This document shows positions 9,589-49,789 of a stretch of DNA of 64,000 bases, piece after piece. Position 1 is the first letter of the stretch; each line of letters opens with the position of its first letter. Made by a program: the position numbers and the translations under genes. The notes under the pieces were generated by a model. It saw only the letters and a list, made by a program, of their open reading frames with translations. It was not told where the DNA came from and ran no database searches. This stretch comes from Rhodobacter capsulatus (GTDB lineage: Bacteria; Pseudomonadota; Alphaproteobacteria; Rhodobacterales; Rhodobacteraceae): assembly GCF_003254295.1 (NCBI RefSeq), contig NZ_QKZO01000001.1, positions 391,698 to 455,697 on the forward strand, given 5' to 3'.

Positions 9589-10965
9589 ATGCGGCTGATC
9601 TGCCCGAGATGCGGTGCGCAATACGAGGTGGATGACGTGGTCATTCCCGCCGCGGGGCGCGATGTGCAATGTTCCGGCTGCGGCCAGACCTGGTTTCAGC
9701 CCAGCCGGGCGATGCTGGATGCCGCCGCCGATCCGGCGCAAGCCGCCGGTGACGCCAGCGCGCCCGGGGCGCCGCAAGACCCGTCTGCCGCGCCCCAGAT
9801 CACCGCAGACCCGGAGCCCGAGGCTTGGCCCGAACCGCGTCCCGAAGACTGGCCCGATGTCGACCCCGTGCCGGAACCGGCGCCGCCCACCGTCCCCGAG
9901 GTCACCGTCGCCGAAGTCACCGTCCCCGAGGTCGCCGGGGCAGAGATCGCCTTGTCCGAAACCGGGGCCCCGGCGCTCGAAGGGCTGGACTGGGCCGTGC
10001 CGCCGCAGGCCGACACGGAACCCGAACCGGCCGATCTTGATCCGGCCGAGGTCGAGGCCGATGTGACCCAGGCCATTGCCGAGCTGATGCGGGCCCATCC
10101 ACTGGCCGCGCCCGTCGCCCCCGAGGCCCCCCCGGCCCCGGCGTTCGCGACGCCCGCCCCCGTATCATCGCATGGCCCCGTATCGCCCGCCCCCGTATCG
10201 GTAGGGCCGCATCCCGTGCCGCCCGCCCCGCAGCCGTCTCCGCCACCGTCCGGCGATCTGGGCCCGGCGCCACGGGCGGGGGCGATTCCGCGCCGCCCGC
10301 TCGACGAAAACCTGATGGCGATCCTGCGCGAAGAGGCCGAGCGCGAAGCCGCCGCGCGCCGCGCAGAGGGCGCGGGGCTCGAGACGCAGGACGAAATGAA
10401 CCTTGATCCGGTGCTGCCGCCGGTAGCGCCGCCTGCTCCGGTGCCGCCTGCTCCGGTGCCGCCTGTCGCCGTGCCACCTGCTGCGGTGCAGCCGCAGCGC
10501 GTGGCCCCGCCGCCGCGCGCCGAGCCGCGCCGGGTGCCCGATTTCAGCGATCTGACTTCCGTCGACGCGGACGACCCTCTCGCCGATCCGACCGGGGCAC
10601 CCGATGCCTCCCCCCCGGACAGCCCCGGGCGCGCGCCGCGGCGTCAGCGTCTGCCCGACATCGACGAGATCAATTCCAGTCTGCGGGCCAGTGCCGACCG
10701 CGCGGGCGACATTGCCGCCCAGGGCACGCTGCAGGGGCGGCAAGACACGCGCGCGGGCTTCCGGCTCGGCTTTTCGACGGTGCTGCTGCTCGCGGCGCTG
10801 GCGCTTCTGGTCTATGCCTATGCGCCGCAGCTGGCCGGGCGGGTGCCCGCGCTGACGCCGCTGCTGGACAGCTATGTCGCTGCGGTGGATGCGGCGCGGA
10901 TCTGGCTCGACGGGCAATTGCGCGCGGTGATCGCCGCGATGCAGGCGGAGGCGCCGCAGGGCTGA
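9589..10965 (+). CDS. Zinc-ribbon (MJ0042-type) membrane protein
   Basis: The product is 458 residues. The N-terminal 35 residues are a zinc ribbon with paired cysteines CPRCG (C5, C8) and CSGCG (C28, C31), the MJ0042 type. A long proline- and acid-rich, probably disordered region follows (about 45-370), including short PVPPAP repeats. One membrane helix lies near the C-terminus (about 393-412, FSTVLLLAALALLVYAYAP), followed by a short amphipathic tail. Relatives beside ftsE are widespread in alphaproteobacteria; their function is not established. The start ATG at 9589 gives the zinc ribbon directly. The low-complexity middle is rich in GCC/CCG codons but keeps the frame clearly open. Confidence 0.85.
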   Translation: MRLICPRCGAQYEVDDVVIPAAGRDVQCSGCGQTWFQPSRAMLDAAADPAQAAGDASAPGAPQDPSAAPQITADPEPEAWPEPRPEDWPDVDPVPEPAPPTVPEVTVAEVTVPEVAGAEIALSETGAPALEGLDWAVPPQADTEPEPADLDPAEVEADVTQAIAELMRAHPLAAPVAPEAPPAPAFATPAPVSSHGPVSPAPVSVGPHPVPPAPQPSPPPSGDLGPAPRAGAIPRRPLDENLMAILREEAEREAAARRAEGAGLETQDEMNLDPVLPPVAPPAPVPPAPVPPVAVPPAAVQPQRVAPPPRAEPRRVPDFSDLTSVDADDPLADPTGAPDASPPDSPGRAPRRQRLPDIDEINSSLRASADRAGDIAAQGTLQGRQDTRAGFRLGFSTVLLLAALALLVYAYAPQLAGRVPALTPLLDSYVAAVDAARIWLDGQLRAVIAAMQAEAPQG

Positions 10966-46837: not shown

Positions 46838-49789
46838 ATGATGAGCGCCGACACGCCCGAAACTGCCGTCGATTACCGCGACACCGTCTTTCTGCCCGAA
46901 ACTGACTTTCCGATGCGCGCCAACCTTCCGGGCCGCGAACCCGACTGGCTGGCCCGCTGGGAAAAGATCGGCATCTATGACCGCCTGCGCGAAAAGACCG
47001 GCCGGGCGCCGTTTGTCCTGCATGACGGCCCGCCCTATGCGAACGGCCATCTGCACATCGGCCATGCGCTGAACAAGATCCTGAAAGACTTCATCGTGCG
47101 GTCGCAACAGATGATGGGCCGCGACGCGCGTTACGTTCCGGGCTGGGACTGCCACGGCCTGCCCATTGAGTGGAAGATCGAGGAACAATACCGCGCGAAG
47201 GGGCTGAACAAGGATGACGTGGACACCGTCTCCTTCCGTCAGGAATGCCGCCGCTTCGCCGAGGGCTGGATCGACATCCAGCGCGAGGAATTCAAGCGTC
47301 TGGGCGTCACCGGCAAATGGGAACGCCCCTATCTGACGATGGATTACCACGCCGAGGCGGTGATCGCCGAGGAGTTCATGAAGCTTCTGATGAACGGCAG
47401 CCTCTATCAGGGCTCGAAGCCGGTGATGTGGTCGCCCGTTGAAAAGACGGCCCTCGCGGAAGCCGAGGTCGAATATCACGACCACACCAGCCACACGATC
47501 TGGGTGAAGTTCCCCATCGTTTCGGTTTCCATGAGCCCGACACTAACGTCACTCTCTGGTCTCAACCCGTTCGATGCTTTGGTGGGCGCAAAAGTCGTAA
47601 TCTGGACCACCACACCTTGGACAATTCCTCAGAACCGTGCGGTAGCCTATAATCCCACGATAAAATATGGCCTCTTTCAAGTAGATGCAGTCAGCGAGGG
47701 AGCACTGGCAGTAGCAGGCGAGCGGCTTCTTATCGCTGATAATTTGGCGGAACAGACGTTTAGGCAGTCAAAAGTTGAGTCATATACTCGGCTCGCAACC
47801 GTTTCTTTCTCCGGCATTGAAAGAATCAAACTCGCCCACCCCTACCGTGGCATCGAGGACGGCAACGGCGAATGGGATTTCGACGTGCCGATGCTGCCGG
47901 GCGACCACGTCACCGACGACGCCGGGACGGGCTTTGTCCACACCGCGCCCAGCCACGGCGATGACGACTATCAGCTGGGCCTGAAATTCGGCCTGCCGAT
48001 GACCTACAACGTCGAGCCGGACGGCAGCTACCGGGCCTCGCTGCCGGTCTTTGGCGGTCAGCCGATCATCCTGCCCGATGGCAAGGAAGGCCCGGCGAAT
48101 GTCTCCAACATCAAGGCACTGCACGCGCAGGGCGCGCTTCTGGCCAAGGGCAAGCTGAAGCACTCCTACCCGCATTCCTGGCGCTCGAAGGCGCCGCTCA
48201 TCTACCGCAACACGCCGCAATGGTTCGCCGCCATCGACGTGAAGCTGGAAGACGGCATGGGCACCTATGGCGACACGATCCGGCAACGCGCGCTGACCTC
48301 GATCGACCAGCTCGTGCAATGGACCCCGCCCACCGGCCGCAACCGGCTTTATTCGATGATCGAGGCCCGGCCCGACTGGGTGCTGTCGCGCCAACGCGCC
48401 TGGGGCGTGCCGCTGACCTGCTTCACCAAGAAGGGCGCGCAGCCGACCGACCCCGATTTCCTGCTGCGCAACCCCGAGGTGAACGCCCGCATCTCTGCGG
48501 CCTTCGAGGCCGAGGGCGCCGATGTCTGGTATACCGACGGCTTCAAGGAGCGGATGCTGGGCAATGTCGTCAACCCCGACGATTACAACCAGGTCTTCGA
48601 CGTGCTGGATGTGTGGTTTGACTCTGGCTCGACCCATGCCTTCGTGCTGCGCGACCGCGAGGATGGCACGGCGGACGGCATCGCGGACCTTTACCTCGAG
48701 GGCACCGACCAGCACCGCGGCTGGTTCCACTCCTCGATGCTGCAGGCCTGCGCCACCAAGGGCCGCGCCCCCTATCGCGGCGTGCTAACCCATGGCTTCA
48801 CGCTCGATGAAAAGGGCATGAAGATGTCGAAATCGCTGGGCAATACCGTCGCGCCCGCGGATGTGATCAAGGATTACGGCGCCGACATCCTGCGGCTTTG
48901 GGTGGCGCAATCGGATTACACCGTCGATCTGCGCATCGGCAAAGAGATCCTGAAAGGCACCGCCGACAGCTACCGCCGCCTGCGCAACACGTTGCGCTTC
49001 ATGCTCGGCGCGCTCTCGGGCTTTGCCGAGGAAGAACGCGTCGCCCCGTCCGAGATGCCGGAACTGGAACGGTGGGTGCTGCACCGTCTGGCCGAACTCG
49101 ATACGGTGGTGCGCGATGGCTATGCGGCTTACGACTTCCAGGGCGTGTTCCAGACCCTCTTCACCTTCTGCACTGTCGATCTTTCGGCCTTCTGGTTCGA
49201 CATCCGCAAGGACGCGCTTTACTGCGACGCGGCCTCCAGCCTGCGCCGCCGCGCCGCTCGCACGGTGATGGACGAGCTCTTCCAGCGGCTGACGAAATGG
49301 CTGGCGCCGATGCTGCCCTTCACCATGGAAGACGTCTGGCTGTCGCGCTTCCCGGGTGAAGCGAATTCGGTCCATCTGGAGGATTTCGCCGCCACACCCG
49401 CCGACTGGTTGAACCCGGATCTGGCGGCGAAATGGGACGGCATCCGCCGCGCCCGGCGCGTGGTGACGGCGGCGCTCGAGGTGCAACGCACCGCCAAGGT
49501 GATCGGCGCCAGCCTTGAAGCCGCCCCGGTGGTGCATGTCGAGGACCAGGCGCTGGAAGCCGCGCTGAAATCGGTCGACTTCGCCGATATCTGCATCACC
49601 TCGGACCTGAGCCTGAGCACCGACCCGGCCCCCGCCGAGGCGTTCCGCCTGCCCGAAGTGCCCGGCATCGCGGTGATCTTCGAGGCCGCCGAAGGTGCCA
49701 AATGCGAGCGCTGCTGGAAGATCCTGCCCGATGTGGGCAGCCACAAGCATCCCTGCACCTGCGCGCGCTGCAATTCGGTGCTGGGCTGA
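46838..49789 (+). CDS. ileS: Isoleucyl-tRNA synthetase
   Basis: The product is 983 residues. It charges tRNA-Ile and edits mischarged valine. Class I signatures are HIGH (73-76, in NGHLHIGHALN) and KMSKS (662-666). The editing (CP1) domain has TTTPWTIPQNRAVAYNP and GTGFVHTAPSHGDDDY. The C-terminal zinc ribbon has CERCW and CARCNSVLG cysteine pairs. ATG 46838 or 46841 is the start. The stretch of about 47512-47832 (residues about 226-332) has much lower GC and different codons than the rest, though the frame and motifs are intact; it looks like a recombinant patch. Confidence 0.96.
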   Translation: MMSADTPETAVDYRDTVFLPETDFPMRANLPGREPDWLARWEKIGIYDRLREKTGRAPFVLHDGPPYANGHLHIGHALNKILKDFIVRSQQMMGRDARYVPGWDCHGLPIEWKIEEQYRAKGLNKDDVDTVSFRQECRRFAEGWIDIQREEFKRLGVTGKWERPYLTMDYHAEAVIAEEFMKLLMNGSLYQGSKPVMWSPVEKTALAEAEVEYHDHTSHTIWVKFPIVSVSMSPTLTSLSGLNPFDALVGAKVVIWTTTPWTIPQNRAVAYNPTIKYGLFQVDAVSEGALAVAGERLLIADNLAEQTFRQSKVESYTRLATVSFSGIERIKLAHPYRGIEDGNGEWDFDVPMLPGDHVTDDAGTGFVHTAPSHGDDDYQLGLKFGLPMTYNVEPDGSYRASLPVFGGQPIILPDGKEGPANVSNIKALHAQGALLAKGKLKHSYPHSWRSKAPLIYRNTPQWFAAIDVKLEDGMGTYGDTIRQRALTSIDQLVQWTPPTGRNRLYSMIEARPDWVLSRQRAWGVPLTCFTKKGAQPTDPDFLLRNPEVNARISAAFEAEGADVWYTDGFKERMLGNVVNPDDYNQVFDVLDVWFDSGSTHAFVLRDREDGTADGIADLYLEGTDQHRGWFHSSMLQACATKGRAPYRGVLTHGFTLDEKGMKMSKSLGNTVAPADVIKDYGADILRLWVAQSDYTVDLRIGKEILKGTADSYRRLRNTLRFMLGALSGFAEEERVAPSEMPELERWVLHRLAELDTVVRDGYAAYDFQGVFQTLFTFCTVDLSAFWFDIRKDALYCDAASSLRRRAARTVMDELFQRLTKWLAPMLPFTMEDVWLSRFPGEANSVHLEDFAATPADWLNPDLAAKWDGIRRARRVVTAALEVQRTAKVIGASLEAAPVVHVEDQALEAALKSVDFADICITSDLSLSTDPAPAEAFRLPEVPGIAVIFEAAEGAKCERCWKILPDVGSHKHPCTCARCNSVLG
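47512..47832 (+). other. Low-GC mosaic segment inside ileS editing domain
   Basis: Hand count of 47581-47820 gives about 50% G+C, against about 72% in 47881-47940. Codons otherwise rare here (ATA, TCA, GTA, AGG, TTT) are frequent. The segment covers part of the CP1 editing domain. Both edges are abrupt and the gene stays open. Confidence 0.8.

Follow-up and report, generated by a model that had tools for sequence, protein, structure and literature searches.

The window (the whole 64 kb stretch of DNA that was analysed) contains the ileS gene encoding isoleucyl-tRNA synthetase (IleRS), and the features discussed below are collected in Table 1. A further in-frame ATG is present at position 46838, upstream of the ileS start at 46841. 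The catalytic motifs of bacterial IleRS are HIGH and KMSKS, and the invariant columns of the ileS alignment include H72-I-G-H75 and K661-M-S-K-S665. The product passed the equivalog model of the type 1 bacterial enzyme, while the C-terminal zinc finger (PF06827) scored 20.0 bits against a cut-off of 21.3. The remaining ileS-like matches in this genome are valS and leuS; no second ileS was seen there.

Table 1. Features of the ileS locus, in positions of the window.
Feature	Position	Strand	Evidence
ileS, isoleucyl-tRNA synthetase, 982 aa + stop	46841..49789	+	TIGR00392, 794.0 bits vs cut-off 621.4; frame intact
Left anchor HTIWVKF; most divergent blocks across the family begin nearby	47492..47512	+	
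Probably replaced block (codons 225 to about 332), spanning a loop and the first half of CP1, the editing domain	47513..47835	+	blastn edges vs G002 and G003; identity outside/inside
Hypervariable loop of 27 residues, against 10 in R. capsulatus and R. viridis	47513..47593	+	
CP1 core of the block, running from VVIWTTTPWT to the HP of HPYRG, with the motif retained but other codons used	47594..47836	+	15/20 identical motif-stretch residues have a codon unlike R. capsulatus
Right anchor HPYRG, native sequence resumes	47837..47851	+	

The sequence-only reading had drawn attention to a low-GC block of about 320 bases in ileS, and this was confirmed by measurement. The GC content over 47512-47831 is 50.3%, against 64.7% for ileS outside the segment, and among all 320-bp windows of the 64 kb, the one beginning at 47515 has the lowest GC (0.500). 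Across 456 kb of the contig, five GC islands are as low as this one, the ileS segment included. GC3 reaches 51.8% within the segment and 85.1% in the remaining gene. The codons described as rare were indeed found in the segment (114 codons) and are missing from the other 866 codons of ileS: ATA (1 vs 0), TCA (3 vs 0), AGG (1 vs 0) and GTA (4 vs 0); GCA occurs 6 times in the segment and once elsewhere. The reading frame is unbroken across the segment, as had been stated. The value of about 72% G+C given for the DNA just downstream was too high, since 66.7% was measured over 47840-48139.

The editing motifs are also intact. WTTTPWT, the conserved Asn and HP are present in all 17 low-GC alleles of the family set described below. 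In the block itself, every strictly conserved position is retained except for one Tyr to Phe change. The AlphaFold model of the enzyme has a mean pLDDT of only 59.5 with a poor catalytic core; its 10-residue mean pLDDT is 72-89 over residues 241-370 and 59 in the loop at residues 231-240. In this model, the editing domain is similar to that of IleRS in 1wk8, a structure with bound Val-AMS (TMt 0.80). Since the motifs are kept and the model resembles 1wk8, editing of Val-tRNA is probably intact, and the suggestion that it had been altered finds no support. The same applies to the proposed change in sensitivity to IleRS-directed compounds: according to a passage of PMC4861432, mupirocin binds the synthetic site of IleRS, so nothing in the exchange suggests a change in sensitivity to mupirocin, and the conserved positions are kept.

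The block was compared with the corresponding DNA of three congeners, namely G002 (L003), R. capsulatus SP108 (G003, L120) and R. viridis JA737 (G016, L088). In blastn alignments its edges lie at 47512/47513 and 47835/47836, identically against G002 and against R. capsulatus. The identity of ileS outside and inside the block is 0.926 and 0.480 to G002, 0.941 and 0.529 to R. capsulatus, and 0.906 and 0.540 to R. viridis. At residues identical to those of R. capsulatus, the codon differs in 38 of 55 cases inside the block and in 111 of 869 outside (Fisher p about 7e-20); just beyond the edges, the figures fall to 6/21 upstream and 6/39 downstream. Codons that differ at unchanged residues indicate that the DNA was replaced even where the protein remained the same.

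Close relatives do not share the low GC: among 17 congeners, none has a drop comparable to that of this ileS block (-13.2 points), the largest being -3.9 points (L016). An ordinary core is common to the sisters L003, L120 and L088, which places the change on the own branch of the present Rhodobacter species. A segment grouping with the same relatives as its flanks had been regarded as an argument against replacement; the flank tree groups this ileS with the R. capsulatus clade (SH-aLRT 91.7), and for the 94-column segment the same grouping is not rejected (p-AU 0.387). Because the segment tree does not reject the sister placement, the case is built on edges, composition and branch length, and not on topology. 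At 15 sites where the sisters depart from the family majority, the allele is sister-like at 4, majority-like at 5 and different from both at 6, a comparison of residues that would give only mild support to replacement.

Over 456 kb, 286 gene pairs of this genome and G002 were scanned, with scoring of those pairs whose background identity was at least 0.86; 54 blocks exceeded the threshold, 14 of them with both flanks at 0.86 or higher. The ileS block heads these 14 with a score of 254, followed by 138 and 89; one ORF without an aligned left flank scored higher (364). At 9751-10250 of the window lies a GC-rich stretch (76%) that is 68-71% identical to both congeners.

It is quite probable that about 323 bp of ileS was replaced by divergent, lower-GC homologous DNA on the branch leading to this species. 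Homologous replacement in CP1 was already part of the sequence-only reading, and this part stands on the edges, the composition and the excess of synonymous differences; a donor of lower GC is inferred, and none was found in the searches reported below.

The block in ileS exemplifies a hotspot of recurrent exchange within an essential, conserved gene. The ileS set comprised 145 Rhodobacteraceae rows, 18 of which were chosen for split, weak or missing matches of the segment; since most other rows were also selected by similarity to this segment, no family-wide frequency is claimed. Low GC was found in 17 of the 145 rows, a count inflated by the 18 chosen rows (8/127 without them). Windows of 60 codons lying more than 9 points under the median GC offset start at codons 220-320, with a peak of 11/145 (7/127 without the chosen rows); elsewhere, they occur in single rows at 380 and 400 and in 1 to 3 rows at 840-920. 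On the flank tree, the 17 low-GC rows correspond to 15 changes, at least 13 of which are forced by supported branches.

The same position was found with a measure based on identity. In 28 independent close pairs (flank identity >0.86), a window more than 0.20 below the flank was observed inside the segment in 13 pairs and outside it in one. The core lies below the flank by -0.02 to 0.39, by more than 0.25 in 5/28 pairs, and intermediate levels of divergence are present. The extreme pairs are this genome and G002 (flank 0.938, core 0.550), and Cereibacter johrii and G067 (flank 0.974, core 0.663). Most divergent blocks start close to WV[RK]F, at a distance of a few residues, an exception being L013/L015, where the block begins within the core; they stop at VVIW (loop only), at LPGDHV or in the vicinity of HPYRG. 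Several of the comparisons used to list blocks were dominated by truncated C termini and are uninformative. Just left of the edge, third codon positions at ACG ATC TGG GTG are 90-100% kept. As for the loop, its length spans 8 to 59 residues. Seventy loops have 22 or more residues; 29 of them fall into four families and 41 are singletons. These families cross genera (e.g., L062/L131/L177), and their members include rows with a flank identity of only 0.73-0.79, which indicates that some loops have moved or are old. No report of a hotspot in this ileS segment appeared in the search listings of open-licence papers.

A separate feature of the family set is a divergent, lower-GC C-terminal block in the ileS of L019 (G008), at the equivalent of 49397-49696, whose identity to the close sister L017 is 43% across 255 nt. 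In addition, two sequences of G085, L210 (C173) and L211 (C49), differ after WV[KQ]F, as if more than one ileS allele were present; the start of C49 also repeats this stretch on the opposite strand, and an assembly error is possible. Breaks of metagenome-assembled genomes at the segment (an N run in G049, breaks in G080, G085 and G094, and a contig start in G114) were considered as a sign of population polymorphism, and this idea was rejected; the binomial p of 0.0016 was discarded because the genomes had been picked for a segment query matching twice, weakly or not at all.

Other alphaproteobacterial families were scored with the same pair measure. Above a flank identity of 0.86, none of their 10 pairs had a 0.20 drop in the segment. 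With pairs down to 0.745 included, such drops were found inside the segment in 2/22 and outside it in 2/22, and the largest core drop was 0.119. With a looser measure, drops of more than 0.15 were seen within aa 304-363 in at most 5 of 22 pairs (at aa 334-363); the region therefore varies to some extent in other families, yet without such jumps.

These controls bear on plain relaxed constraint, according to which any change is tolerated in this half of CP1 and the hotspot arises with no selection or special process; such an explanation is compatible with recombination. Across the Rhodobacteraceae the segment is indeed less conserved than its surroundings, the range of loop lengths and the variation at aa 304-363 in other families fit it, and E. 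coli with an editing-deficient IleRS is about as viable on LB as the wild type, as a passage of PMC4861432 states. The lack of jumps in the ten equally close pairs of other families argues against it, as does the strict retention of the editing motifs, and we consider it a possible but doubtful account.

No donor was recovered by protein searches in any of the sequence collections covered. In 390 genomes of the order, a set overlapping the family one, the best-scoring matches were at most 62% identical, and in 248 family genomes identity was 44-68% among the matches listed, with a query that included some flank. Genome contigs gave at most 58% (best 80 of 526 relatives), plasmids 59% at best, and viral contigs and phages under 50%. 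The four viral-contig matches are 35-47% identical; three of them span nearly all of ileS, and the fourth ends near a contig end. The low-GC cores of the ileS set are orphans as well: their best core identity averages 0.643, that of the remaining rows 0.811, and in this set the core never exceeds its flank by more than 0.05 in any pair. Orphan cores would be odd if exchange among the sampled lineages were frequent, and a simple exchange model is weakest on this point.

Since the low-GC cores have no close kin, hyper-diversification in place, by fast mutation or selection with drift towards 50% GC and without foreign DNA, keeps some weight. It would account for alleles distant from everything else, the sister placement that topology does not reject is consistent with it, and so are the pairs of intermediate divergence. 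It nevertheless appears unlikely: both edges are sharp and synonymous differences are far fewer just outside them, and the sisters evolve slowly in the same segment (the cores of R. capsulatus and R. viridis are 90% alike). In addition, L189, one of the 18 rows chosen for split, weak or missing matches, has TIPSN where its flank relatives L048, L070, L129 and L064 have TIPQN.

A scar or co-conversion left by a site-targeting mobile element (intein, homing endonuclease or integrative element) would agree with the left edge near WV[RK]F in most pairs and with the conserved third codon positions there. However, no split ileS or extra fragment was seen, with one match in each of the 390 order genomes; roughly 155 listed matches lie in long open frames (the shortest noted, in G344, of 578 aa), and the interruptions in G049, G080, G085 and G094 are an N run or a contig end, which makes this origin very improbable. 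Chance, that is, ordinary compositional fluctuation or an assembly chimera, can practically be dismissed: four further islands as low occur in the 456 kb, but identity collapses with exact edges in two comparisons and the same place is affected in other genera.

The analysis of other synthetases revealed a second hotspot in valS, between WWGHQIPVWY and DVLDTWF, in 4/8 Rhodobacter and 4/12 Paracoccus pairs. Low-GC valS alleles were found in 7 of 17 Rhodobacter rows (54-59% vs 62-65% for the gene). One allele is common to L222 (this genome) and L225 (G013), and a related one occurs in L223 and L226, while R. viridis has a short GC-rich allele. The alleles of the valS block are unrelated in close species (Rhodobacter L222-L230 and L280-L287; Paracoccus L412-L436). 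In leuS, identity falls by 0.20 at aa 588-619 in 2/9 pairs. At this place, the loops before KMSKSKKN exceed those of the other Rhodobacter leuS by about 59 residues in G009 (L357) and 29 in G016 (L356), with a GC of 53% and 56%, respectively, against 63% for the gene; measured against the gene, these GC drops of 10 and 7 points are the largest. The leuS sequences give hints that LeuRS may be a further hotspot. No window 0.15 low was detected in metG (16/18 rows, 7 pairs), and in thrS (17/18 rows, 8 pairs) one pair was 0.20 low at aa 436-465. As for alaS (12/18 rows, 6 pairs), such a drop was seen in one pair at aa 815-844 and in one or two pairs close to the N terminus; there, the frame still holds sequence upstream of the likely start.

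A speculative, and on balance rather unlikely, extension would be a diversifying allele system in the branched-chain tRNA synthetases of Rhodobacteraceae. Segments that can be exchanged and are often low in GC, located in the editing domain of IleRS, before DVLDTWFSSG in ValRS and possibly before KMSKS in LeuRS, would be turned over by frequency-dependent selection, since an antagonist (a phage factor, a toxin or a DNA-cutting selfish element) would recognise the enzymes or their genes.

Returning to replacement by homologous DNA, the 323 bp would have been swapped by homologous recombination with the matching part of a divergent, lower-GC ileS, anchored in conserved DNA at WV[RK]F on the left and HPYRG on the right. 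The incoming DNA may come from an unsampled relative and may have entered as a fragment, for example, via the Rhodobacter gene transfer agent. Tolerance of new alleles at this site, and perhaps selection in their favour, would make it a hotspot.

As marker genes, tRNA synthetases are generally regarded as slow and safe. A jumping IleRS segment in an otherwise calm gene would point to an unsuspected recombination hotspot or to a selective agent acting on the editing domain, and ileS and valS could mislead phylogenies. A testable question follows, namely, what attacks these synthetases or gains from changing them.

Three known systems can be compared with the ileS block. The abstract of PMC9690577 describes the Rhodobacter capsulatus gene transfer agent as carrying fragments of about 4.5 kb that are integrated by allelic replacement. 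It is a plausible route for homologous fragments in the genus, including that of ileS, and is not evidence for it; it moves random fragments and leaves the repeated use of one segment unexplained. Horizontal transfer of the whole ileS gene is recorded for bacterial and eukaryote-like IleRS in a passage of PMC4861432. The enzyme family is the same and foreign ileS DNA would likewise have been gained, whereas here only about 320 bp inside a type-1 gene is concerned. Finally, several bacterial core genes are mosaics produced by homologous recombination of short internal fragments. The ileS block resembles them in that its edges are sharp and lie in conserved DNA, the exchange is in frame, and a divergent insert sits between native flanks; unlike them, it lacks a donor among the sampled relatives, lies in an essential tRNA synthetase and involves the same segment in several genera of one family.
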